Part shown: positions 18,273 through 31,004 of the stretch, piece by piece
Numbering within the stretch: the first letter of the stretch is position 1
Layout: the number at the start of each line of letters is the position of its first letter
Virus record (IMG/VR): IMGVR_UViG_3300046001_010423
Span: 1 to 31,147 of that record
Source: a virus
DNA length: 31,147 nucleotides
Strand: one strand, 5' to 3'
Translations under genes and position numbers: made by a program
Notes under the pieces: model-generated
Database searches by the model: none
What the model saw: only the letters and a program-made list of their open reading frames with translations
What the model was told of the DNA's origin: nothing

Positions 18273-19883
18273 TTATCTGAAATTAGGTAGCCTTGGTTGA
18301 GGTTGATTTTGTTCTACAATGTCCACAAGGGTACATTCAGTGGTCAATATCATTCCTGCAATAGAACTTGCATTTTCAAGTGCAATTCTGGTTACTTTTA
18401 CAGGGTCAATAATACCAGCTTTAAACATGTCTTTTACATATTTATTTTCTTTGGCATCATACCCTGAATTAGTAGGACCTTCTAATACTTTATTAAGTAC
18501 AACTTCTCCATTAACTCCTGCATTTTCTGCTATTTGTTTAAGAGGTGCTTCACAAGCTTTTAAAATTATTTTTACACCTGCTTTTTGAGCATCATTGCAA
18601 TCAAGACTTATTCCTTGTGTAGCTTGAATTAATGCTACCCCCCCACCACAGACAATTCCTTCTTGTAAAGCAGCTTTTGTTGCATTAAGAGCATCTTTGA
18701 TTCTCTCTCTTTTTTCCTTTGCTTCAACTTCAGTAGGAGCACCTACATAGATAACACCAACACCATTTTTAAGTTTGGCAATTCTTTTATCATACTGCTC
18801 TTTTTCATAATCATTTTCAGCTGTAACTTTTTGAGCTTCAATTTCTTTGATTCTAAAATCAAGCATTTCTTTAGTTCCACCACCACCAACTAAGGTAGTT
18901 TTATGATAGTCTATTTTAACAGACTCACAATATCCTAAATCAGTTTTTGTAGTTTTGGATAAAAATCTATTCAATTGCTTGCTTCTGATAGTTCCTCCTA
19001 CTACTATTGAGATATCTTCAAGATAATCTTTTTTTCTTTCTCCAAAGCCTGGGCTTTTAACTATTGCAATGGCAGCTTGAGCTTCCATTTTATTAATAAT
19101 TAAAGTTCTAACTACTTCAGGGTCAAAATCTTTAGCAATGATAAGTAAAGCTTTTCCTTGACCAATAGAATGTTCTAAAGCAGACATAATCTGCTCCATT
19201 TTTTCAATTTTTTCCTCTGCAACAAGAATGCACACATCCTTTAAATGGACTTCTCCATCAGGTGTATTTACAAAATAAGGAGAAAAATAACCACTATCAA
19301 ATTCCATACCTTCAGCTAAATCTACATAAGTAGAAGTTGTGGTAGATTCTTCAATAGAAATCACACCCTCTTTGCCTACTTTAGAATAAGCCTGACCAAT
19401 CATTTCACCAATTTCTTCATCATTGTTGGCAGAAATCATAGCAACCTGTTGCATTTCTGCCCCTTCAGTTCCAATTGTATGTGCTAACTTTAAAAGGTTT
19501 TCAGTAATAGCTTTTACAGCTTTATCCATTCCTCTTTTAACTTCAATAGGATTTAATCCTACTGCAATAGCTCTAAGACCTTCTCCTACCATTACTTGGG
19601 CTAAAACAGTGGCTGTAGTAGTTCCATCTCCTGCTTTTTCATCAGTTTTTGAAGCTACACCTCTTACTAAAGCTGCACCCATATTTTCCAATCTATCTGT
19701 TAAATCAATAGATTTAGCTACTGTAACTCCATCATTAATGATTAGAGGCATTCCAAAAGGAGCATCTATCATTACATTTCTTCCTTGAGGTCCAAGTGTT
19801 ACTTTAACAGCATTTGCCATTTTATCAACTCCTCTTTTGAGACCTTTTTTTGCTTTGTCGCTGTACTTGATTTCTTTTGCCAT
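18273..19883 (-). CDS. groL: GroEL-type group I chaperonin, 60 kDa, phage-encoded
   Basis: This is a full-length (536 aa) chaperonin subunit, expected to form ATP-driven double rings that fold proteins in the cytoplasm. The equatorial ATP site is intact: GPQGRNV (31-37), DGVTVA (51-56) and GDGTTTATVL (from 85), including the catalytic-type Asp86. The second equatorial half has the expected R-I-K-D-A-L-N-A-T and CGGGVALI strings. The apical domain is present (FDSGYFSPYFVN, then the LLIIAKDF strand). The C-terminus ends QPQPRLPNFR and lacks the flexible Gly-Gly-Met repeats of most bacterial GroELs. The gene starts one base after, or overlapping, the groES stop and is followed by a strong terminator. 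A phage copy probably folds phage structural or giant proteins; that is inferred. Confidence 0.96.
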   Translation of the reverse strand: MAKEIKYSDKAKKGLKRGVDKMANAVKVTLGPQGRNVMIDAPFGMPLIINDGVTVAKSIDLTDRLENMGAALVRGVASKTDEKAGDGTTTATVLAQVMVGEGLRAIAVGLNPIEVKRGMDKAVKAITENLLKLAHTIGTEGAEMQQVAMISANNDEEIGEMIGQAYSKVGKEGVISIEESTTTSTYVDLAEGMEFDSGYFSPYFVNTPDGEVHLKDVCILVAEEKIEKMEQIMSALEHSIGQGKALLIIAKDFDPEVVRTLIINKMEAQAAIAIVKSPGFGERKKDYLEDISIVVGGTIRSKQLNRFLSKTTKTDLGYCESVKIDYHKTTLVGGGGTKEMLDFRIKEIEAQKVTAENDYEKEQYDKRIAKLKNGVGVIYVGAPTEVEAKEKRERIKDALNATKAALQEGIVCGGGVALIQATQGISLDCNDAQKAGVKIILKACEAPLKQIAENAGVNGEVVLNKVLEGPTNSGYDAKENKYVKDMFKAGIIDPVKVTRIALENASSIAGMILTTECTLVDIVEQNQPQPRLPNFR

Positions 19884-20134
19884 TATGCTTCTATTTTACA
19901 AATTATTGCTTCTTCCCTGCATTTTATAAAGGTAATTCCCTCTATAATAACCTCACTATGGTCATACTCTTCAAAGTAGACTAAATCCCCAATTTGAGAA
20001 TTACTTACATTTGGTCCAATATGGGCAATAGTACCAACATATTCTTTAACTCCTTCTGTGAAGAAAGCCCCCTCTTTAGGGGGTCTCTCTGTTAGCAGAA
20101 TGAAGTCTTTTTTTAACTTAATTTTAGACACCAT
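19883..20134 (-). CDS. groS: GroES-like co-chaperonin (83 aa)
   Basis: The short co-chaperonin should cap the GroEL ring. The core strands are recognisable: KLKKDFILLTER at the N-terminus, YVGTIAHIGP, IGDLVYFEE and the C-terminal EEAIICKIEA that matches the usual E-x-D-I-L-A-I-V ending. It is shorter than the about 97-residue bacterial GroES. The segment equivalent to the mobile loop reads PPKEGAFFTEGVKEY, lacking the canonical G-G-I-V-L contact tripeptide and several residues, and the roof hairpin region is reduced. The stop and the groEL start overlap, the classical groES-groEL arrangement, which supports the call. It may be matched specifically to the phage GroEL rather than the host one. 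Confidence 0.85.
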   Translation of the reverse strand: MVSKIKLKKDFILLTERPPKEGAFFTEGVKEYVGTIAHIGPNVSNSQIGDLVYFEEYDHSEVIIEGITFIKCREEAIICKIEA

Positions 20135-20140
20135 ACATTT

Positions 20141-20716
20141 TTATTTAATTGATTTATGAAAATACTCTTCTTCTTGCTTAAGGGTGAAATCTAGTTCACC
20201 TGTCCAACTTAAGTGGTCAACAGTTGTGTTGAACTCTTTATTGATAATGGCTACAAAATCTATTTGATACATTTCATCTTTTACTAAGACTTTGAGTTCT
20301 TCTTCTCTTCCTTTAAAGAATTGATTTAGAGCCTCATAATCATACATTTTACTAAATTCACTTGTTTTGAATTTAGCATAAGCCCCTTTATAATCTTTTG
20401 GTATTTGAATAGCTATCATATGTAAATGACCTAAATGCAAATCATCAAAAGCATAATCAAAACCAAAATAGTCTTGCAATTTAAGCCAATTCATTGTAGA
20501 TTTAAAACTTAATCTTGATAAATTTGTATCTACCAAGATAAAAATATGTTCATTTAAGTTAATTCCTATTTCTGTTAGAGAAAAATCTCCAATTCCAATC
20601 CCTAATTTAAAGAGGTTTCTGATTTTATCTTCAAAAACCTCTCCATAAGATTTCAAACAAGGAAGTAAATACTTTTTAGTTTTATTTCTGTAAATTGTTC
20701 CTAGTTGTACCTTCAT
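20141..20716 (-). CDS. conserved-looking hypothetical protein (191 aa) between nuclease and groES
   Basis: No family is recognised with confidence. The N-terminus is basic (YRNKTKKYLLPCLKSYGEVF), followed by a glycine-rich strand (FKLGIGIGDFSLTEIGINL) and a hydrophobic strand (HIFILVDTNL). A central LHLGHLHMIAIQIP segment contains three His and could bind metal, but the spacing is not a known motif. It is soluble, with no signal or membrane segments. Its ATG overlaps the stop of the PD-(D/E)XK gene, and it ends six bases before groES, so it belongs to the same transcription unit that runs from DNA processing into chaperonins. Confidence 0.6.
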   Translation of the reverse strand: MKVQLGTIYRNKTKKYLLPCLKSYGEVFEDKIRNLFKLGIGIGDFSLTEIGINLNEHIFILVDTNLSRLSFKSTMNWLKLQDYFGFDYAFDDLHLGHLHMIAIQIPKDYKGAYAKFKTSEFSKMYDYEALNQFFKGREEELKVLVKDEMYQIDFVAIINKEFNTTVDHLSWTGELDFTLKQEEEYFHKSIK

Positions 20717-21852
20717 TACTCTATTAGTATTAGTCCATCACTTTCAACTGTCTCTTTGTCATACTCAAAGCCATTTTCTTGATGCCATACGTATAAAGCT
20801 AAAGCATCTATAAAACCTTTTATAGGTTTATGATGTATAAGCTCTTGACTTTTTAGGGCATATTTAGGTGTAATTCCTGTTACTAATAGAGCAGGTCTTC
20901 CAAATTTACCAAGGTTTAATTGGTTAGGGCTAAGTATAAAAGAAATAGGTTTACCAGTATTATATCTGGTTTCTCCAGTAATGGCATTAGTTTTATGTAC
21001 AGTTGTTTCAACTAAAAATATAAAATCAGCTACAGAATAATTTTCATTTATATTCATATCAACTGGACAAGTTGCTTGTCCTACTCTTAATGCATAAAGA
21101 GCTTCAGTGTAGAAAGAAGCTTGAATATTATATCCTCTGCTTTTTACAGCATAAGGAAATTCAACTGTATTTGCCCCCATAGTTTTAATATCAATAGGAA
21201 AAATTATTTGTGTTTCTCTATCAATGAATACTTTATCTAATAAAGCTTTACAAAGAACTCCTCCAAAAGTAAAGTAAATAGGCACTTGATGATAAATATC
21301 AATATGAGAAGCAGATTTAAAATACTTATTAGTATATTTTCCTGTTTCCAAAGACATTACTATATTCTGTACTAGAGTTGTTTCAATAGAACTAAGAATC
21401 TGTTTACCATAAGCCAACTTAAGTTGTTCAAAGTATTCAAATCCACCTTCCATTATTTTATTTACTCTAGTCTCTTCTTTCCAATTTGGTTGATAAGCAT
21501 GTACCATAATAGCTTCTAATGTATAAGCTACATATTGATGAATATCTCCTTCAGGAGCATTGTCATCAAAACAAGCACTATCAAATACTTGTTGCACAAT
21601 ACTCATTATGGTATCTGAAGGTTTCTTCCCTTCAAATGAAAAGAATTGTAAATCATAATTTTCTTTTCCTTGAGTAAGCCAGACATCTACTGCAGAGCCA
21701 ATAACAAAATGTCCTTTCTCTTCATAGTATAACTTCTTCTCATCTCTTTCTAAATAATCAACTCCTTTAATAAGTAGTTTTAAATAGGATTGGCTCACAG
21801 AACCATCAGCAAAGTACTCTTCCACTTCTTGTGGATTGCCATATCTAATCAT
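20716..21852 (-). CDS. PD-(D/E)XK exonuclease-like protein (Cas4/RecB/YqaJ type)
   Basis: This is a 378-residue putative DNA exonuclease. The metal-binding core is visible as LLDKV with Asp206, followed by FPIDIKT with Asp221-I-Lys223, spaced as in the D...(D/E)xK fold. A downstream Q-A-S-F-Y-T-E-A-L helix matches the Q-x3-Y motif of the Cas4/RecB-nuclease-like group. An early IGSAVDVWLT segment (51-60) corresponds to the helix that often carries a His in this group; here it carries Asp56. In phages such exonucleases resect ends for single-strand annealing recombination. The RecA-like ATPase and SSB-like protein upstream fit that role. It overlaps the neighbouring nuclease gene by eight bases. 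Confidence 0.72.
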   Translation of the reverse strand: MIRYGNPQEVEEYFADGSVSQSYLKLLIKGVDYLERDEKKLYYEEKGHFVIGSAVDVWLTQGKENYDLQFFSFEGKKPSDTIMSIVQQVFDSACFDDNAPEGDIHQYVAYTLEAIMVHAYQPNWKEETRVNKIMEGGFEYFEQLKLAYGKQILSSIETTLVQNIVMSLETGKYTNKYFKSASHIDIYHQVPIYFTFGGVLCKALLDKVFIDRETQIIFPIDIKTMGANTVEFPYAVKSRGYNIQASFYTEALYALRVGQATCPVDMNINENYSVADFIFLVETTVHKTNAITGETRYNTGKPISFILSPNQLNLGKFGRPALLVTGITPKYALKSQELIHHKPIKGFIDALALYVWHQENGFEYDKETVESDGLILIE

Positions 21853-22300
21853 AATTAATCATTTTTATTAGTTTAATAAAATCTTTAAAAGTCATACTGA
21901 CTATTTCATCAAATTCACTTCCTTTTTTACCTTGCCCAATATCCTTTTTGTGAATTAGAACTTTCATATTTTGTTGCTCAGGATAATGAGCAGGAAAGTT
22001 CTTTGTTAATCCTAGTTTAATCTTTTCTAGTTCTACCTCAACTTTAAGCCCTTTCTGTTTACCATGTTTAATTTGGAAACAGAAGGGGTCAGTAAAGCAT
22101 AAATCTACTCCTGAAGCATCTAACAAGGCTGAAGCCTGTCTTGATGTTTTGCATTTTTCAAATCTAGGGTGCAAGTCTCTGAAAAAATTAGCATAATATC
22201 TTTCGAGAATATGCCCATTTTGTCTGTTTCTTGCACCTTGACTTCTTACTCTTCTTTCAGGTTTTTGTTCCTCTAAATTTTCTTCTTCATTAGATTCCAT
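21845..22300 (-). CDS. small PD-(D/E)XK nuclease, Holliday-junction-resolvase-like
   Basis: This 151-residue protein has the pattern of Hjc/VRR-like nucleases. Glu33 sits in GHILERYYANFF (helix 1). ASGVDL with Asp66 is followed by CFQIKHG with Gln76-I-Lys78, giving the acidic residue plus (D/E/Q)xK signature. Basic residues (QGARNRQNGH, KHGKQKGLK) surround the site, as expected for DNA binding. The first 20 residues are Glu-rich and then Arg-rich, and are probably disordered. Resolving or nicking branched phage DNA is the likely role by family; substrate specificity is unknown. It overlaps the upstream cassette gene by 11 bases and the exonuclease gene by eight, so expression is tightly linked. 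Confidence 0.65.
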   Translation of the reverse strand: MESNEEENLEEQKPERRVRSQGARNRQNGHILERYYANFFRDLHPRFEKCKTSRQASALLDASGVDLCFTDPFCFQIKHGKQKGLKVEVELEKIKLGLTKNFPAHYPEQQNMKVLIHKKDIGQGKKGSEFDEIVSMTFKDFIKLIKMINYD

Positions 22301-22970
22301 CTATTATTTTTTTATTAAACGAATTAAGATACTCTTGAAGTTCTGTTATATTCCTAAATTTAGGAATTGCAACATTATTTTTAAAGTATCTTTTTACTAT
22401 GTCTTTAGTTATTATCACTTCCACACCTTCTTTTAAGTGCATAGGAGCAATAGTATCATAGACTTTCTTGTATACATTCTTGTACTTTGGTTTAGTAGCA
22501 AAATCAAGAGAAAACAATAAAGCATAGTTTTCAGTTTTTTCTGCATTTAAATCTTGTCCAAGATTAGGAATATGACTTGTTTTTATCCCTACCATAAATA
22601 GAATATTTGGCATGTCATTAATTAACTCATAAATACACCCTTTAAATACAAAAAGGTTATAAGTCATTGTAGCAGTTTTAAAAGCCTTTGGTAAACTGTT
22701 ATTATATAATGCATTAAAAAAACGTGGATAAGTTCTATAAGGGTATCCCTCATCTCTACTATCTTCAGTTCCTTTAGGAATACCATAATTAATAACTTTC
22801 TTATTATAAACTGTCTTATTAATTTTAACAGAAAACAATGGAAAGTAATCATTGTCAATAGATAATCCTTCTCCTTGATACCATTCTAATATTGCTCCAA
22901 TTGCTATAGAATTTTCTTTTAAGTATTTGAAATTATCATTTACTTGAAAATTTAAAAGTTGACTTCTCAT
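22290..22970 (-). CDS. uncharacterised cassette protein next to the E1-like gene (possible PRTRC-B-like position)
   Basis: This 226-residue soluble alpha/beta protein is not recognised by motif. It starts MRSQLLNFQVNDNFKYLK, has strand-rich stretches (YFPLFSVKINKTVYN, MTYNLFVFKGCIYELIND) and a C-terminal charged helical tail. Position is the main clue: it overlaps the E1/ThiF-like gene by one base in a cassette that also encodes JAB and Ub-like proteins. In plasmid PRTRC cassettes an E2-like protein B sits near ThiF, and the single Cys in VFKGCIYE could be compared with the E2 active-site region. I see no convincing E2 signature, so this is only a hypothesis to test by structure prediction. 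Confidence 0.6.
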   Translation of the reverse strand: MRSQLLNFQVNDNFKYLKENSIAIGAILEWYQGEGLSIDNDYFPLFSVKINKTVYNKKVINYGIPKGTEDSRDEGYPYRTYPRFFNALYNNSLPKAFKTATMTYNLFVFKGCIYELINDMPNILFMVGIKTSHIPNLGQDLNAEKTENYALLFSLDFATKPKYKNVYKKVYDTIAPMHLKEGVEVIITKDIVKRYFKNNVAIPKFRNITELQEYLNSFNKKIIDGI

Positions 22971-23644
22971 TATGATACCATATTTAATGGTATGAAATAT
23001 TCATACATAAATGGCACATCTCTTACTTTTGTTACTGCTAAGACATTGGTCATATGATTAGTAAAGAAACCAATCATTAAACTTGCTATCATAGAGGCTG
23101 AATGTGAAGTTTGTTTTAGTGTACAGTTTTCTGCCATTACTACAGAGTCATCAAATAAATGGTCTCTTTCATATTCATCAGCAGTTTCATTGGTAACACA
23201 AAAAATCTGCATCTGCTCCATAAGCAATCTTCCATCAATAAATATAGCAAAAGGATTTTCTGTATTATCTTCTCTCCATCTTTTAAACATTACTTTTCTG
23301 GCTTCCATATTATCAAAAGCAGAAAACATATAAGGAGAAGTCATCCCATTTTCATCATACTTTTCATTAAAAACCATAACATCCATATCAGAAAATTCTA
23401 ATATCATTTCTCTCACAGCTTCCACTTTATCCATTCCTATATGTTTTTTACTGAATAATTGACCTCCCATATTATGAACTTCAACTGTGTCAAAGTCATA
23501 AACTAAAGGAAAATATCCTGTTCTGGCTAACAAAAATGATAGCCAACTGCCAATTCCACCTGCACCACCTATTATACAGGTGGTGGGTTCTTTAGGAAAC
23601 CAAGGTGCATCCTTGAATCTTCCTCTTATTTGTATTGCATCCAT
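22970..23644 (-). CDS. E1/ThiF-like adenylyltransferase
   Basis: This is a 224-residue Rossmann-type E1-like enzyme that would adenylate the C-terminus of a ubiquitin-like protein. The nucleotide loop is GGAGGIGS (26-33). Asp50 in VYDFDTVEVHNMGGQ aligns with the canonical D-x-D-x-V...N-x-x-R-Q segment, but Gly61 stands where the conserved Arg should be. Lys73 (GMDKV) and the AFDNMEAR block (Asp111-Asn112...Arg116) are intact. Cys174 in AENCTLKQTSHSASM sits where E1/ThiF proteins carry the thioester-region Cys. Its length fits a minimal single-domain ThiF/PRTRC-type protein. It overlaps the JAB gene by one base, so the two should be made together. Activity is plausible, but the Arg loss is unusual. 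Confidence 0.85.
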   Translation of the reverse strand: MDAIQIRGRFKDAPWFPKEPTTCIIGGAGGIGSWLSFLLARTGYFPLVYDFDTVEVHNMGGQLFSKKHIGMDKVEAVREMILEFSDMDVMVFNEKYDENGMTSPYMFSAFDNMEARKVMFKRWREDNTENPFAIFIDGRLLMEQMQIFCVTNETADEYERDHLFDDSVVMAENCTLKQTSHSASMIASLMIGFFTNHMTNVLAVTKVRDVPFMYEYFIPLNMVS

Positions 23645-24855
23645 TATGATAATGCTATTAATCTGTTCAACATTATATTCAGTCCACTAAGAAGATGTTC
23701 TATTACTTCATGAGTATCAAAAGATTCTTCTAGTATTTCCATTACATCTTCTGTAACTAATCTAAAGAAGTCTGTATCAATTTGTCCAAATCCATCCCAA
23801 TATTGTTCAAATAAAGCTGGGTACATATTAAGAAACTTTGCAGTAAACTCAAATGTATTTACTTTGCCTGCATCTAAATCTTCTAAAGCTGATTCAGGAG
23901 TGTTGGAAATTAAAGGAGACTCGTGACCTAATCTCAAGATAAAAGCTGTAAAATCAGCTAATTTTTCTTCGTGAGACATTTTAGATACATCTCTATTAGT
24001 GATAGGAGGTGTATCAAAATCATCAAGTTTTAATTGTTTTGAATCAAACCAATCATCATCTGATATAAATTTTCTATTTGCTAGAAAAGCATCAGCTCCA
24101 TTTGGTCCTGCTTCATATGGATTCTTAGCTGGAATAACATTTCCAAAAGCACTTGTATGTGTGGTAGGATAACTTTTTATACTTTTAAGCCTAGCTAGTT
24201 CTTCTTTCTCTTCTGCTTTTTGTATAATCTCTTCAAGCCTATCAGAAAAAGAATTTTCAACAAAAGGTAACTCTTCCTTTACTACAATATCACAATCAAA
24301 AGTGAACATTATTTGTTTTGTATTCTTTAGGTTTAAGTTCCAATTTTTTCCTGTTTCATCTTTACATTCATAACCTTTGACATTTCCTCTGAAAGCAACT
24401 TTAGCTACCATTTCTTCAAAGTTGTTTACAATCAATGAGAGATAATAATTATGAAACTCTGAGTTATCATTCAACTCAGACATATCTGTCCCTGAGAAGT
24501 AAGATTTCATACTATTGTGACTATGTACCATACCAATCTTCCACCCTAAACTTTGAGGATTATTCATTCTATAGTCAATAAGGTCATCATCTAAATCATA
24601 TTCTGTATATGCTTTAGTTCCTTTATTCATAGGATAAATATCTTCTACAGTAAATTCAACTTTGTCAAATTGTTTAATACTGCCTTTTACAGAGTAAAAT
24701 AATACTCCTGACCACTCTACTAAACTGATTTTACCACAAAGAAGTTTTATCTTATTAGATACTTCTTGTGGGATTATTAGCTTTGGACAATTGCTCAGAG
24801 ATATAACATCTAAATCTCTGGGTTTTAATGGTTTGTTCAATTCTTGATTTTGCAT
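23644..24855 (-). CDS. JAMM/JAB-domain metallopeptidase (Ub-like isopeptidase type)
   Basis: The N-terminal domain carries a complete JAMM zinc site: Glu47 (VEWSGVL), then H111-S-H113-x7-S121-x2-D124 (MVHSHNSMKSYFSGTD). This is the signature of isopeptidases that cleave ubiquitin-like proteins from targets or mature their precursors. About 200 residues of Lys/Glu-rich helical sequence and an acidic C-terminal domain follow, without a recognised family. That makes it longer than minimal prokaryotic JABs, possibly for substrate or partner binding. The start overlaps the upstream E2-like ORF by 101 bases. A later start would remove little of the JAB domain, since strand 1 (CPKLIIPQEV) begins near residue 23. 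It is coupled to the E1-like gene downstream. Confidence 0.88.
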   Translation of the reverse strand: MQNQELNKPLKPRDLDVISLSNCPKLIIPQEVSNKIKLLCGKISLVEWSGVLFYSVKGSIKQFDKVEFTVEDIYPMNKGTKAYTEYDLDDDLIDYRMNNPQSLGWKIGMVHSHNSMKSYFSGTDMSELNDNSEFHNYYLSLIVNNFEEMVAKVAFRGNVKGYECKDETGKNWNLNLKNTKQIMFTFDCDIVVKEELPFVENSFSDRLEEIIQKAEEKEELARLKSIKSYPTTHTSAFGNVIPAKNPYEAGPNGADAFLANRKFISDDDWFDSKQLKLDDFDTPPITNRDVSKMSHEEKLADFTAFILRLGHESPLISNTPESALEDLDAGKVNTFEFTAKFLNMYPALFEQYWDGFGQIDTDFFRLVTEDVMEILEESFDTHEVIEHLLSGLNIMLNRLIALS

Positions 24856-25942
24856 ATTCTTTTAAGTCTTTGTGAATAAAAAAAGGTTTTTCTGCATTTA
24901 ATGCTCTTTCTTCTTCTGATTGATATATTACTTTAAATTCTATTAATTCTCCTTTGAAATACCAACTAATTGTATTCAATTCTTCTACTGGGTCTAATAA
25001 AGCATCAGGAAATTCAGTAGGTAAACTTCTTCTACTGTAATAATTTCCTTTTTCATCTTTGATACATAATGTATTCCTAATATCTACAGGGTATACTCCA
25101 GAAACATCTCCTTTATATTTTAGAAAGTCTTCAAATTTATTGTTATCTATAACTTTAATTTCTCCATTTTCTACTTTAAAATTGATATTCATTTCCCATA
25201 AAGGCAAATAATCATAAAACTCTTGTTGTTTATAAGAAGAAGGATGATTTATTTCAGCCCTACCTGAAACATATTTCATATAGATATGAGGTCTTCCCTC
25301 AATAGATTCCCATTGTACATACAAGTCCAATTGTAATAGAAACATCTTAAAGATGTTGGAATCATATCTGCTAGATAACATTGATAAGATTTGATTAATT
25401 TCACTAGACCCTTTACAGAAATTTCTATATGTAAAAACAGCATTTGAATCTCCTGTTTGTCCATAACTAGAAAATTTACTTGCTTCTCTTGTCTTTTTTA
25501 TTTCAGTGTAAGGTCTACTGGGTAGATGACTATGTTGATATTTAGACAACACTTCTTCATCTGTTACTGTCATTCTTTTTCCTTTGAAATCATCAAAAGT
25601 TATTCCTACTCCATTGTAAGCTTGTATACTTTGCAATTTAATGTATAAATCGTGTATAGTATGCTTCATTTCTTCTGAATTACTGATTACAATTTTAGGA
25701 AAATGAATTACAAATTCAGCTTTTAATACTATTTTATCTTTAATTGCAAAGCATCTTTCAAACTGAATGTCCCATCTATTAGGAAAAACATATTGTAATT
25801 GTTCCATAATAGAAGACATATTTATTGTGATTATATCACTAAAAGCTAACCTATCTCTTAAAACTAGATTTGTAACTAAAAGAATTTTTTCTTCTGTTGT
25901 TTTACGATTTATTGCTGTTAGATATTTTTCTATTTTATCCAT
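24755..25942 (-). CDS. candidate E2-like (UBC/UEV-fold) protein of the Ub-like cassette
   Basis: This 395-residue protein lies between the Ub-like and JAB genes. Its first half shows an order of elements suggesting a prokaryotic E2/UEV-like fold: strands (WDIQFERCFAI, IVLKAEFVIHFP), an SEEMKHTIHDLYIKL segment, then YQHSHLP with His137 and His139, and later RNFCKGSSEI with Cys176. An H-x-H region followed by C-x-G is how several prokaryotic E2-like families present the active site. The assignment rests on this pattern and on the neighbours, not on a firm family match. The C-terminal half is beta-rich (DIRNTLCIKDEKGNYYS) and unassigned. A hairpin separates it from the Ub-like gene upstream. It could instead be a non-catalytic scaffold. 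Confidence 0.5.
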   Translation of the reverse strand: MDKIEKYLTAINRKTTEEKILLVTNLVLRDRLAFSDIITINMSSIMEQLQYVFPNRWDIQFERCFAIKDKIVLKAEFVIHFPKIVISNSEEMKHTIHDLYIKLQSIQAYNGVGITFDDFKGKRMTVTDEEVLSKYQHSHLPSRPYTEIKKTREASKFSSYGQTGDSNAVFTYRNFCKGSSEINQILSMLSSRYDSNIFKMFLLQLDLYVQWESIEGRPHIYMKYVSGRAEINHPSSYKQQEFYDYLPLWEMNINFKVENGEIKVIDNNKFEDFLKYKGDVSGVYPVDIRNTLCIKDEKGNYYSRRSLPTEFPDALLDPVEELNTISWYFKGELIEFKVIYQSEEERALNAEKPFFIHKDLKEYAKSRIEQTIKTQRFRCYISEQLSKANNPTRSI

Positions 25943-25955
25943 TTTATTTAAATTA

Positions 25956-25986
25956 AAAAGTCAGGATACATAATATCCTGACTTTT
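25956..25986 (-). terminator. hairpin/terminator between the Ub-like gene and the rest of the cassette
   Basis: There is a perfect 13-bp stem, AAAAGTCAGGATA (25956-25968) with TATCCTGACTTTT (25974-25986), and a 5-base loop. It is nearly symmetric, so it could act on both strands. On the minus strand the stem ends in a T-run. It lies 22 bases after the Ub-like stop and ends 13 bases before the next start codon. Partial termination here would give more Ub-like protein than E2/JAB/E1. Confidence 0.8.
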
Positions 25987-26008
25987 ATATTAATTATTGG
26001 TCAATTAT

Positions 26009-26896
26009 TTATTGAACATCTCCAAACATTCTTCTCATTTCAGCTTCCTGATTTTTAAGAATTTCTTCATCATGTCTTTTTTCTTCAGCAAGAATTTGTC
26101 TAGCTTCTTCTTCTTCTTTAGCTTTAGCTTCTGCTATTTCTTTTTCTTTTAAAAGACTCTCTACTTTAAGATTAACAGCATCTTCAAGACTTAACGCATG
26201 ACTTTTCATTACATCAATTTCTTCTTTAATACTTTTAACAAAATCTTCTTCAAGAATTTCTGGAAAAACTATAGAATCTATTGCAACTAAAATTGCAGAA
26301 AAAGAACAAGCAAGAGGAGATTTAATTTCTATAACAGTATCTGTATCAGAAGCAAATACTTGCATATCTTCAACTTCTTCTTTGGATTCCTTTACAGATT
26401 CAACAACAGCTTCTACTTTTTCTACCATTTGTCTAGTAGGTTTAGGTCTACTGTTTTTAGCAGAAGTAGCTTTTTTCTTTTTAGCTGGTGCTTCAACAGG
26501 AACTAAAGTAATTCCTTTCCAAGTTGCCAATAACCCTCTAAGTTCCTCAGTCCCCTTAGTGGTATAATTCTTTCCCACATTAAAGTGAGCTTTAGCATTT
26601 TCTCCACCTGTTGCACTAAGAATAGTACAAATTTCAGCTCTAAGTTCTTTGTAACCAATAGTATTAATATCAGCACCTGCTTTAGTTTTCTTTGGCATAA
26701 GAAACAAAGTAAAACCTGTAGTTGGCAATATTGCAGCATCAGCTTCAAGAGTTAATTTAGACTCTCCAATTACTGATTTCATACCATTATAGGTAATCCC
26801 TTCTCTATTCAAATCATTTTGTAGTTGACCCCAAGTTGTGGCACTGGTTTCTACACTCTTTTCTCCCATTTGGGTAGAATAAACTTTTACAATCAT
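26009..26896 (-). CDS. N-terminal beta-grasp (ubiquitin-like) domain protein with coiled-coil tail
   Basis: Residues 1-75 look like a prokaryotic ubiquitin-like beta-grasp domain of the PRTRC-C/Prok_Ub kind. There is a first hairpin (MIVKVYSTQMGEKSVET), the helix TTWGQLQNDLNREGI, then strands KSVIGESKLTL and GFTLFLMPKK. A second small helical module follows (about 82-130), then a Lys-rich linker (KKKKATSAKNSRPKP), an acidic region, and a long charged coiled coil (about 240-290, rich in K/E/A). There is no terminal Gly-Gly; the chain ends MFGDVQ, so conjugation would need processing or a different chemistry, or the domain may work non-covalently. It is the first gene of the Ub-like/E2-like/JAB/E1 series and follows the primase gene by 11 bases. 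Confidence 0.6.
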   Translation of the reverse strand: MIVKVYSTQMGEKSVETSATTWGQLQNDLNREGITYNGMKSVIGESKLTLEADAAILPTTGFTLFLMPKKTKAGADINTIGYKELRAEICTILSATGGENAKAHFNVGKNYTTKGTEELRGLLATWKGITLVPVEAPAKKKKATSAKNSRPKPTRQMVEKVEAVVESVKESKEEVEDMQVFASDTDTVIEIKSPLACSFSAILVAIDSIVFPEILEEDFVKSIKEEIDVMKSHALSLEDAVNLKVESLLKEKEIAEAKAKEEEEARQILAEEKRHDEEILKNQEAEMRRMFGDVQ

Positions 26897-26907
26897 CTTG
26901 ATTATTT

Positions 26908-27936
26908 TTAAGTTATTAATTTATTTTTTCTTAGAAATTTTTGTAACTCTTCTTCCCCTTTGATTTTGTATAAATCTGAAGGGTCTGATATGTTCTCTTT
27001 TAATAGTTTTATTGGTAAACTCAGAGATATTGCTTTATTTGGATAAATAGTATTAATATATTCAGCAATTTCTGCTGAAGCCTTTATGCCAGTGTTATCA
27101 TTGTCATAAAAAACTACTACTTTTTCAAAGCCTCCTACTAGATTTAGGAGATATTCTTCACAAGGTTTTTGACCTTCATTTTGAAACCATCTTACTTCTA
27201 ATCCTTGATTTTTAAGTACTCTATAATCTTTATAAGATTTAGTAATTACTAATAAAGGTCCCGAAGTTATAAGAGAACTATTTCCTCCTATATCATTTTG
27301 ATTACAATTTGTAACCCATTTTCCTTGCCCTACAATATCAGGGGTATAAATTTTAATTCTCTCTCCAAAATTTCCTATAATATAAGACCTTGTATTAGGT
27401 CTAATGACAACATATGTCTTGAATCTTTTTGAAAAAATTTTATACCATATTACAGGGAAGACTTCATCTTCCATTAAATTGGCTTTGGTTATACCATATC
27501 CACTCCAAAATTCTCTATCTTTAGCATTATTAAATGCTCTAGCTTTAAATGGAATATCTTTATTTACCTTTTCATTCTGGGTAATCTCTCTTTTAATACT
27601 AGGAGGTTTTATCACTGTACTTGTTGCTATGTTAGTAGCAATTATTTCCAATGATTTAAAAAAACTAACCCCATAAGTATCTTGAATAGCATTAAAACAA
27701 TCTCTATGTTTTCTTTTTGTGGCTTCTGCCCAATCAATAAAATATAAAATGTCCTTATACCATTCAAAATAACAATCAGGAGTTTTATCCTCTCTGAAAG
27801 GAGATTTAATGTATTTATGTTCTTCAGGAGTAGAACCAAAGACCATTTTAAAAATATCCTCCTGAGAAATTCTCTCAAGAATATTTTCTTTAGTCAAATA
27901 AGCACTTGTTCCTTCAACATATCCATATTTTTCCAT
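26908..27936 (-). CDS. DnaG-like primase with TOPRIM domain, zinc ligands lost
   Basis: This is a 342-residue primase-type protein that would synthesise primers for phage DNA replication. An N-terminal SPFREDKTPDCYFEW (45-59) matches the C-P-F-H-x-E-K-T-P-S-F motif of DnaG zinc domains but with Ser and Arg instead of Cys and His, so no zinc site. The TOPRIM part shows LLVITKSYKDYRVL (228-241), where many primases have Glu instead of Lys, then VVFYDNDNTG (274-283) with the D-x-D pair Asp278/Asp280. The T-K-S-x-K-D variant is known to me from other phage TOPRIM proteins. There is no helicase domain. The position next to the SSB-like and RecA-like genes fits a replication module. Confidence 0.75.
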   Translation of the reverse strand: MEKYGYVEGTSAYLTKENILERISQEDIFKMVFGSTPEEHKYIKSPFREDKTPDCYFEWYKDILYFIDWAEATKRKHRDCFNAIQDTYGVSFFKSLEIIATNIATSTVIKPPSIKREITQNEKVNKDIPFKARAFNNAKDREFWSGYGITKANLMEDEVFPVIWYKIFSKRFKTYVVIRPNTRSYIIGNFGERIKIYTPDIVGQGKWVTNCNQNDIGGNSSLITSGPLLVITKSYKDYRVLKNQGLEVRWFQNEGQKPCEEYLLNLVGGFEKVVVFYDNDNTGIKASAEIAEYINTIYPNKAISLSLPIKLLKENISDPSDLYKIKGEEELQKFLRKNKLIT

Positions 27937-29329: not shown

Positions 29330-29755
29330 TTACTCTCCATTATTGTAGTCATCAACAGCTTTGATAACTGCCCCTAAATCATTTAAGATGTAAAGGTCTT
29401 TGAACATTCCAACAGGTGATTTAGCTGGATATTGTCCATCAAAATTGGTTACAAAAGATTTTGTAACTTTTTTATCTTTATCATTCCAAATTTGTTTACC
29501 ATATAAAACAATAGTAAATAGACCTTCAAGAGTTACCTTATTATCTAACATTTTACCAATAGTTTTAATCTTATAACTTGTTTGAAATCCATTCTCAATT
29601 TCTTCACTGTGAGTTAACACAATAAAATTGATATGTGCTGGTAATCCTATTCCTGTATTCAATACATCATAGGCATTTTTTGCTAGTTTATTAAACTTAT
29701 CAAATCCTGCTTTCAATGCTTGAGCCATAAACTCATCTGCAAGAATGTATTGGTA
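29330..29755 (-). CDS. RecA/AAA-type ATPase, exon 2 (C-terminal 141 residues)
   Basis: This is the C-terminal half of the intron-split ATPase. After splicing it begins YQYILADEFMAQAL directly behind the Walker B aspartates of exon 1. The LPAHINFIVLTHSEE strand is the expected next core strand, with the polar sensor residues at its end. The segment continues through beta strands (LEGLFTIVLYGKQIW) to a helical C-terminus. An ATG two codons into the unspliced frame (29758) could be mistaken for a start, but that ATG belongs to the last three bases of the intron. Confidence 0.85.
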   Translation of the reverse strand, partial: YQYILADEFMAQALKAGFDKFNKLAKNAYDVLNTGIGLPAHINFIVLTHSEEIENGFQTSYKIKTIGKMLDNKVTLEGLFTIVLYGKQIWNDKDKKVTKSFVTNFDGQYPAKSPVGMFKDLYILNDLGAVIKAVDDYNNGE

Positions 29756-30704
29756 CATACATTTGTTATCTGAAAGGCTCTTTATCCTTTCATTCTATAC
29801 TTTCATATTCCCATTTAAAATTGTAGGCTGTTTTTCTTTTCTTTTTACAACAAGCATGTATATTTTTTATAGTTGATTTATAAACACCATCCACATTAAT
29901 ATATTTTGCTGCTTCAAAAAAAGAAGTCCATTTTTTAACAAAAATACCCTCTTTAGTAAATTGTATTATAGGAGTTGCAGTAGTTTTTCTTTTAGCATTT
30001 CCAGCATTTAAAATCCAAGATTCTGTTTTAGGTCTTGAATTTAATCTACTTATATTTGCTTTAGCTTCTTCTGTATGTCTATATCCTAAACATCCTGTTC
30101 CTCCTAAATTACCTTCTCCACCATCAGATAGGTTTGTTAAATTATACCCCCAACTTTTAAATTGTGAAATCCAGTATTGTTCCCAAAAAATCCAATTAGA
30201 TTCTTCAACAATATCTAAAATTTCAATTTTTGGTCTAAGTTCTTGTTTTTTTAGTGAAACAATCCAATTTCTTTTATGATTAGTTTCTCTTGCAAGTTTA
30301 TACTCAGAACAATGGTCATACCATCTATCTATTAATTTTCTGGTTGTTTGTCCTATATATCTGATTTCTCCTGTTTTAGGGTCAGATAAGGTGTAAATAT
30401 TTACCATAGTTATTGTATTTTTATTTTATAAAAATACAATTTTTTAGATGATAACCATAATATATGGGTAATTTTATTTTGTAATTATTTGTATAGTTCA
30501 GACTATCTCTTTATAAGCCTTTAAATGTTGGTACACATAAGCCTATATCCCGCACTCTTGGTAATTCATTCTCCTCAACACCACTTGTTAGGACAGTATT
30601 TACTAGTCGTTGTTCCTTATACATATTTCTATATATCTTGGATAAGGGTTATCTTTTACTAAGACTTTCCCAGATTCACGAGATTTAATGATGACTACCG
30701 TTTA
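29756..30704 (-). ncRNA. group I self-splicing intron in the ATPase gene
   Basis: The intron is 949 nt. P1: exon end GATGAT (30710-30705) pairs with GTCATC (30695-30690), with the U.G wobble exactly at the splice site. P10: GGTA (30699-30696) pairs with exon 2 TACC. P7: GACTA (30608-30604) pairs with TAGTC (30505-30501), in group I R/S-like contexts (CAACGACTAGTAA; AGAGATAGTCTGAAC). The intron ends in G (ATG|TAC), as required. A GAAAGG/CCTTTC hairpin lies just before the 3' end. The homing endonuclease ORF lies after P7, in a peripheral loop. Excision restores the frame across Walker B. The exact subgroup is not determined. Confidence 0.88.
29790..30407 (-). CDS. intron-encoded GIY-YIG homing endonuclease with NUMOD DNA-binding modules
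   Basis: This 205-residue protein carries the GIY-YIG fold at its N-terminus: NIYTL (3-7) and RYIGQT (16-21), with Arg23/Arg28 on the following helix and Glu76 (WEQYWI) as metal ligand, then GYNLTNLSDGG. A NUMOD3-like segment follows (GYRHTEEAKANIS, 108-120). The C-terminal part (TPIIQFTKEGIFVKKW, then SFFEAAKYINV) is a NUMOD1-like DNA-binding helix-turn-helix. Such enzymes cut intronless alleles and so spread the intron. It is encoded inside the group I intron, after the catalytic core, in the same direction as the host gene. The enzyme looks intact. Confidence 0.9.
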   Translation of the reverse strand: MVNIYTLSDPKTGEIRYIGQTTRKLIDRWYDHCSEYKLARETNHKRNWIVSLKKQELRPKIEILDIVEESNWIFWEQYWISQFKSWGYNLTNLSDGGEGNLGGTGCLGYRHTEEAKANISRLNSRPKTESWILNAGNAKRKTTATPIIQFTKEGIFVKKWTSFFEAAKYINVDGVYKSTIKNIHACCKKKRKTAYNFKWEYESIE

Positions 30705-31004
30705 ATCATCAATAACTATATTCTTGATTTCAGGTCTTTTAGCTCCAATATATTGCATCACTTTGATAATATCATAAGGATTACAAGAGTCTAAATAATT
30801 ACCTTCTTTTGGTGGAGTATTTGCATCAAACTTTACAGGAATGTACATTTTTCTCCAACCTCTAAATGGTAATGGTTTCCCTTTTACATTAAAGAAAAAG
30901 GTTTCTGCTGGGTTCAATCCTATAATATCTAATTCAGGTATTGAGCCTACTGATGTGGTTTTTCCAAATCCACTTTCTGTTACTACTGCTATTGCATTTG
31001 ACAT
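30705..31004 (-). CDS. RecA/AAA-type ATPase, exon 1 (N-terminal 100 residues)
   Basis: This is the N-terminal half of an ATPase that is 241 residues long after splicing to exon 2. Walker A is TESGFGKTT (residues 9-17, Lys15) near the N-terminus. Walker B is KNIVIDD, ending in Asp99-Asp100 at the exact exon end; the unspliced frame then hits TAA in the intron. Spliced, it reads NIVIDDYQYILADEFM, which fits small RecA-like NTPases (Sak4-like) of crAss-like and other phages, thought to aid single-strand annealing recombination. The intron insertion point in the most conserved active-site codons is typical of homing introns. No clear Shine-Dalgarno precedes the ATG. A 7-bp hairpin (31023-31029 with 31043-31049) lies just upstream. 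Confidence 0.85.

Follow-up and report, generated by a model that had tools for sequence, protein, structure and literature searches.

The viral record IMGVR_UViG_3300046001_010423, whose 31,147 nucleotides constitute the window analysed here, carries five consecutive minus-strand genes which we tentatively interpret as a compact phage ubiquitin-like conjugation and deconjugation system of PRTRC-like layout, with counter-defence or avoidance of exclusion as its most likely role. Coordinates and strand of all five open reading frames (ORFs) were as claimed in an earlier note on this DNA. They encode, in this order, a ubiquitin-like protein (UBL) precursor of 295 aa (26009..26896), an E2-like candidate of 395 aa (24755..25942), a JAMM/JAB metalloprotease of 403 aa (23644..24855), a minimal E1, i.e. 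a ThiF-type adenylating enzyme, of 224 aa (22970..23644) and a fast-evolving partner of 226 aa designated P5 (22290..22970). A phrog scan of the window genes placed all five proteins close to phage families without known function. The UBL enzymology predicted here is well supported at the level of sequence. Of the set of Ub-like, E2, JAB and E1 proteins proposed in the note, the UBL, JAMM and E1 assignments stand on fold, motifs, conservation and co-occurrence, while that of the E2 is plausible.

The 403-aa protein has the complete E...HxH...S/D zinc site that defines JAMM proteases. The residues E47, H111, H113, S121 and D124 were found exactly where the note had placed them and are 96–100% conserved among 97 non-redundant homologues. 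Profile searches matched Prok-JAB weakly (0.0077) and the PDB profiles of CSN5 (0.0015) and JAMM1 (0.064), these two being the nearest solved structures by sequence; comparison with PRTRC_A by hhalign gave 2e-6 (89%). The genes of the E2-like protein and the JAMM protease share 101 bp in different frames (24755–24855), and this overlap is kept among loci with a median of 104 bp.

The predicted Rossmann-type adenylation core of the 224-aa protein was confirmed by a Pfam ThiF match (3.5e-13 for this single sequence, 2.2e-28 for the family consensus). Residues D50, D52, K73, D111 and R116 are invariant and Cys174, the candidate catalytic cysteine, is 98% conserved, so that both elements of an E1/ThiF enzyme are present; in the N-x-x-R-Q motif the usual R is replaced by G. 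UBA2 and UBA5 are its nearest solved structures by sequence. The hhalign alignment with PRTRC ThiF reaches the Cys region (5.8e-18, 99%), a match which is partly superfamily-wide as the E1s of E2–E1 fusions also match (1.3e-12). A lone E1 relative with 28% identity and no cassette occurs near topoisomerase genes in Xanthomonas/Erwinia jumbo phages of about 227 kb (L007, 6001–6684).

The N-terminal beta-grasp of the 295-aa protein, on which the note had staked its proposal, was borne out by structure prediction. The AlphaFold2 model showed a predicted local distance difference test (pLDDT) score of 83 overall and of about 93–98 over residues 1–70, with a beta-beta-alpha-beta-beta arrangement that leads into a flexible tail and then helices. 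Foldseek assigned residues 2–68 to the ubiquitin/SUMO/NEDD8 fold, with matches to ubiquitin, SUMO1, NEDD8, ISG15 and BfUbb at a probability of about 1.00; TtuB was also among the matches. The best E-value was modest (about 2e-3) because the domain comprises only 70 of the 295 residues. Searches of Pfam, NCBIfam and PDB profiles revealed no significant relatives. Behind the last strand, the family motif K-[TVI]-K-[SA]-G (here PKKTKAG) ends with G74, the one invariant residue of the protein, present in 70 of 70 aligned sequences. A beta-grasp fold with a glycine tail behind its last strand classifies the protein as ubiquitin-like.

A helical C-terminal extension follows G74. In nine short homologues the chain stops 1, 1, 1, 1, 1, 3, 3, 5 and 5 residues past the glycine (e.g. 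...MPKQTKSGE and ...ATKEIKSGK), two others continue for 11–50 residues and 117 for more than 50, and not one of these homologues ends exactly at the glycine. As even the short forms run 1–5 residues beyond it, cleavage would be needed, and their ends match what is predicted for a precursor cut after the glycine. The post-glycine extension (26009–26660) shows in some members a weak HeH/LEM or SAP-like similarity and possibly binds nucleic acids.

The H-x-H...C-x-G pattern reported for the 395-aa protein corresponds to H137-S-H139...C176-x-G178, with C176 and G178 100% and H139 98% conserved. The family motif is Y-x-H-S-H-(11–37)-C-x-G with invariant C and G, and its His-to-Cys spacing of 11–37 residues exceeds that of the classical HPN...C arrangement. 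An invariant catalytic-type cysteine with a flanking His motif is what characterises the E2 superfamily. The AlphaFold2 model (pLDDT 86; predicted template-modelling score 0.82) consists of a helix, a four-strand meander, a loop bearing HSH and the cysteine, and further helices. No significant relatives were found in Pfam, NCBIfam or PDB profile searches, and a BFVD search with the model returned, at strong E-values, phage homologues only. Position, cysteine and modelled topology make an E2 identity plausible, and this is the weakest of the assignments. One locus carries two nearly full-length E2-like genes side by side (L144, 6100–8173).

For P5, neither a significant Pfam match nor a PDB profile match was obtained, the hhalign comparison with PRTRC_F was not significant, and no fold or family was assigned to this protein, which the note had listed as an unassigned partner. 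An ORF of 136–461 aa directly adjoins E1 in 146 loci, P5 itself being profile-detected in few loci and of low conservation.

From these features we infer the following course of events. The JAMM enzyme would cut the UBL precursor behind the invariant G74; the E1 would adenylate the exposed glycine and then keep the UBL as a thioester, for which C174 is the candidate; the E2-like protein would accept it on C176 and hand it on to a lysine in the target protein, from which the JAMM enzyme may also take it off again. Its evolutionary rate, the fastest of the five, makes P5 the leading candidate for the binding of targets or adaptors.

The joint conservation of the gene set in related phages, likewise named in the note as decisive, was found throughout: in a redundant first collection of 165 loci, the order UBL–E2–JAMM–E1 occurs in all untruncated loci except one (L064), where a UBL was not detected. 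Median gene spacings are 63 bp for UBL–E2, −104 bp for E2–JAMM, −11.5 bp for JAMM–E1 and −1 for E1–P5. The same five-gene order is present in the isolated phages crAss001 (gp79–gp75), DAC15 (DAC15_91–87), bajarodcaudo virus 1, cr111_1 and Flavobacterium phage Fpv3 (gp55–gp51); in crAss001 the genes are annotated as thiamine biosynthesis protein, metalloprotease and hypothetical. Scanning genomes with the JAMM gene yielded a Chitinophaga locus, one contig of a metagenome-assembled genome (MAG) and a weak match on a Heimdallarchaeota MAG contig, and nothing else. The block on the chromosome of Chitinophaga sp. YR573 (L167) has the order UBL–E2–JAMM–E1–P5 with a short UBL ending in ...SELGRK and is apparently an integrated relative. 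A search of plasmids with the E1 returned a single weak match, from a non-PRTRC plasmid.

Insertions interrupt several cassettes at catalytic positions. They split the JAMM gene at IH^SH in L002 and L075 and near this position in L045 and L073, and the E2-like gene at YMH^SH in L077; in E1 they lie near GGAGGIG in L036 (L130 has the same insertion) and near FIDGRL in L146. Rfam identified group I introns in L075, L077 and L036. As homing elements typically target strongly conserved sites, these insertions independently mark the codons concerned, including the HSH of the E2-like protein, as constrained. In Flavobacterium phage Fpv1 (L002, 6061–7054) it is an opposite-strand ORF annotated as endonuclease which breaks the JAMM gene at HSH; the gene is intact in Fpv3.

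In the window the cassette is embedded, as the note had stated, between the genes of a DnaG-type primase (26908..27936, minus strand; phrog_12622, 2.9e-61) and of the recombination nucleases, namely a RusA-like resolvase forming the downstream boundary (21845..22300, minus strand; phrog_15993, 1.7e-13; phrog_244, 1.5e-5) and an exonuclease VIII-like nuclease (20716..21852, minus strand; phrog_412, 4.4e-20). The primase was used as an independent anchor to gather loci, of which those with at least 6 kb downstream were counted (n = 38). All four cassette genes were present in 32 and none of the four in six. In these six, primase and uracil-DNA glycosylase (UDG) genes are followed by an rIIA-like gene (phrog_612, 4.1e-65), encoding a GHKL ATPase-like protein (HATPase_c_3), and an rIIB-like gene (phrog_609, 5.1e-27), and then by the same resolvase and exonuclease. 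Genes of the T4-type rIIA–rIIB module, unrelated in sequence to the cassette, occupy its slot in relatives: among all loci rII occurs in eight environmental ones and in none together with the cassette, and 24 larger records (51–105 kb) comprise 20 with E1 and no rIIA and four with rIIA and no E1. The Steigviridae human-gut phage cr116_1 carries rIIA–rIIB in this slot, between primase and UDG, at the site where cr111_1, a relative from the same subfamily, has the cassette. On a primase tree made by a quick method from rows chosen for this question, the cassette/rII label changes five times by parsimony, and at least three changes are forced by well-supported branches. Crassvirales as a whole do not obey this either/or rule, as crAss002 (Intestiviridae) has a primase homologue and neither cassette nor rII. 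In one rII-bearing phage, a phosphatase-family gene (phrog_335, 1.4e-46) lies beside rIIA (L236, 10891–11352). The UBL fold, the catalytic sites, the gene linkage and this exchange are all supported by sequence or model.

Where RexAB immunity is present it is suppressed by divergent rII modules, and where it is lacking these are not needed; the role of rII was described as still unclear almost seven decades after its discovery (PMC11879866). Because rII counters RexAB host exclusion and swaps with the cassette, we infer counter-defence as the leading reading. The cassette would then act in the middle stage of infection, in the role filled by rIIA–rIIB in rII-bearing relatives. Middle genes of crAss001, expressed 10–30 min after infection, have largely replication and recombination functions (PMC8375218); judged by its position and strand, the cassette probably belongs to this class. 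With somewhat less confidence, one can speculate that a complete viral UBL system and rIIA–rIIB repeatedly replaced each other since either of them neutralises host exclusion linked to the membrane or to replication.

Several points weigh against a conjugation system devoted to counter-defence. The activities of the cassette enzymes are predictions; so is cleavage at G74, since in most cases the UBL is a precursor extended by a long helical part. Among the PDB matches of the E2-like model, UEV domains of Tsg101/Vps23 recur weakly (Foldseek probability 0.06–0.21), and hhalign comparisons of its profile with PRTRC_B and Prok-E2_B were not significant, for which reason it is not graded as a proven E2. 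Exchange at one site can mirror a recombination hotspot instead of shared function. Finally, the location among replication genes is equally compatible with modification of replication proteins.

This last point leads to the main rival, which we regard as somewhat less likely, namely that the same UBL enzymology targets phage or host replication, recombination or repair machinery and that the rII exchange is incidental. It would explain why the cassette is fixed between primase (or UDG) and resolvase/exonuclease, within a middle-gene block (PMC8375218), and why its PRTRC relatives adjoin plasmid ParB genes. It fits poorly with the finding that in at least three lineages the genes standing in place of the cassette are rIIA–rIIB rather than replication genes, and with the unchanged persistence of primase, UDG, resolvase and exonuclease in loci without the cassette. 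Of the two roles offered in the note, modification of replication proteins and action against a host Ub-like defence, the recurrent in-place exchange favours counter-defence, specific opposition to a Bil-type defence being one possible form of it.

Two further explanations appear improbable to a similar degree. A sulfur-carrier module of the ThiS/MoaD type, supplying sulfur for small-molecule or nucleic-acid modification, would agree with the small size of the E1 and with the best match of its consensus, which is to ThiF-type sulfur-carrier adenylyltransferases (4.3e-27). This reading, which the note had also considered, is disfavoured by the constant linkage of a JAMM protease and an invariant-Cys E2-like protein and by the PRTRC-like order; no sulfurtransferase, thiolation or sulfur-mobilising gene was seen in the loci inspected or the scanned flanks, and the UBL fold matches the ubiquitin type, although TtuB is listed too. 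Alternatively, the cassette might act as a decoy for, or antagonise, the Ub-like defences of the host (Bil, CBASS type II, E1–E2); JAMM would then strip host modifications and the UBL would compete for host enzymes. The presence of JAMM in every intact cassette, the distant relationship to E1s of host E1–E2 defences (PADLOC, 1.2e-6) and the counter-defence logic of the rII exchange speak for it; however, a stand-alone antagonist needs no E1 and E2 of its own with conserved active sites, and a host target is hypothetical. That unrelated genes share motifs by chance or misannotation, as the lack of significant Pfam matches for UBL, E2-like protein and P5 might suggest, is strongly contradicted by the AlphaFold2 and Foldseek results for the UBL, the Pfam match of E1, the complete JAMM motif and the all-or-none conservation, and is highly improbable.

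Among known systems, the phage cassette most resembles in gene order the PRTRC plasmid cassettes (TIGR03735–TIGR03738, i.e. PRTRC_A/B/C and ThiF), class 6d of Iyer et al. 2006 (PMC1779556), in which, as mentioned in the note, JAB, E2-like, Ub-like and ThiF proteins co-occur. UBL–E2–JAMM–E1 matches C–F–B–A–ThiF, F being absent in the phage, and the similarity includes the profile homology of E1 and JAMM, a K-G type Ubl tail and C-x-G at the E2 cysteine. In contrast, NCBIfam cut-offs were not reached (ThiF 26 of 144.75 bits, PRTRC_A 12.9 of 101.8), the PRTRC B and C models gave no match in the cassette proteins, and the phage Ubl and E2 are not profile-alignable to their PRTRC counterparts (UBL against PRTRC_C by hhalign not significant). 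The ParB, PRTRC_E and PRTRC_F partners had no match among the window genes scanned, and the phage cassette sits in the replication block with P5 behind E1.

Bil operons (BilABCD), a bacterial ISG15-like defence, comprise the same four predicted activities, Ubl, E1, E2 and JAMM. In BilA there are two Ubl domains, and the E1 of BilD is in two parts (PMC11354881), whereas the phage cassette has a single Ubl domain and an E1 of 224 aa; the CEHH motif of BilB differs from the pattern of the E2-like protein, the cassette is phage-borne and not a host defence operon, and a PADLOC scan gave it no Bil-named match. CBASS type II (Cap2/Cap3) and 6A-MBL/E1–E2 systems share E1-type adenylation and, with Cap3, the logic of a JAB-type isopeptidase, but the phage E1 and E2 are separate proteins, a cGAS-like or MBL gene is absent and the modifier has the true beta-grasp of a UBL. 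TAPI and the JAB protein TAPK of Lambda/T1 are likewise a phage-encoded Ubl with glycine and a protease (PMC1779556); these tail-morphogenesis genes come without E1 or E2, and a tail-assembly identity was set aside. Pupylation was also set aside, as no Pup/PafA-type protein was seen.

What is new here are the phage setting and the rII exchange; parts and order are already known from PRTRC/class 6d, whose partners are missing. We found no description of a crAss or Crassvirales cassette with ubiquitin, ThiF or JAB in the open-access literature, where absence is not proof, and neither Yutin 2021 nor Shkoporov 2018 mentions it. crAss-like phages rank among the most abundant viruses of the human gut. 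In bacteria, Ub-like pathways are known above all for their part in defence against phages. If our interpretation is true, a ubiquitin-like conjugation pathway belongs to the core equipment of a large branch of crAss-type phages from gut and environment, which encode it amid their genes for DNA replication, in contrast to its anti-phage use by bacteria. The strict exchange with rIIA–rIIB offers a comparative handle on rII function that is testable in cultured phage–host pairs.

The crAss-like affiliation given in the note holds in a broad sense: the window shares with Crassvirales its replication block and also a giant RNA-polymerase-like ORF, but the closest isolates are the Flavobacterium phages Fpv1 and Fpv3 (Fipvunavirus), whose NCBI lineage line gives no Crassvirales placement. 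A Sak4-like annealing gene (29330–31004) is in two pieces, corresponding to positions 1–82 (30702–31004) and 83–212 (29330–29758) of phrog_2872, around an ORF resembling a GIY-YIG endonuclease (29790–30407); no Rfam intron reached the gathering score in this split gene. Just downstream of the recombination genes, at 18273–20134, lies a pair encoding GroEL (Cpn60, 5.7e-64) and a GroES-like protein (Cpn10, 2.2e-4).

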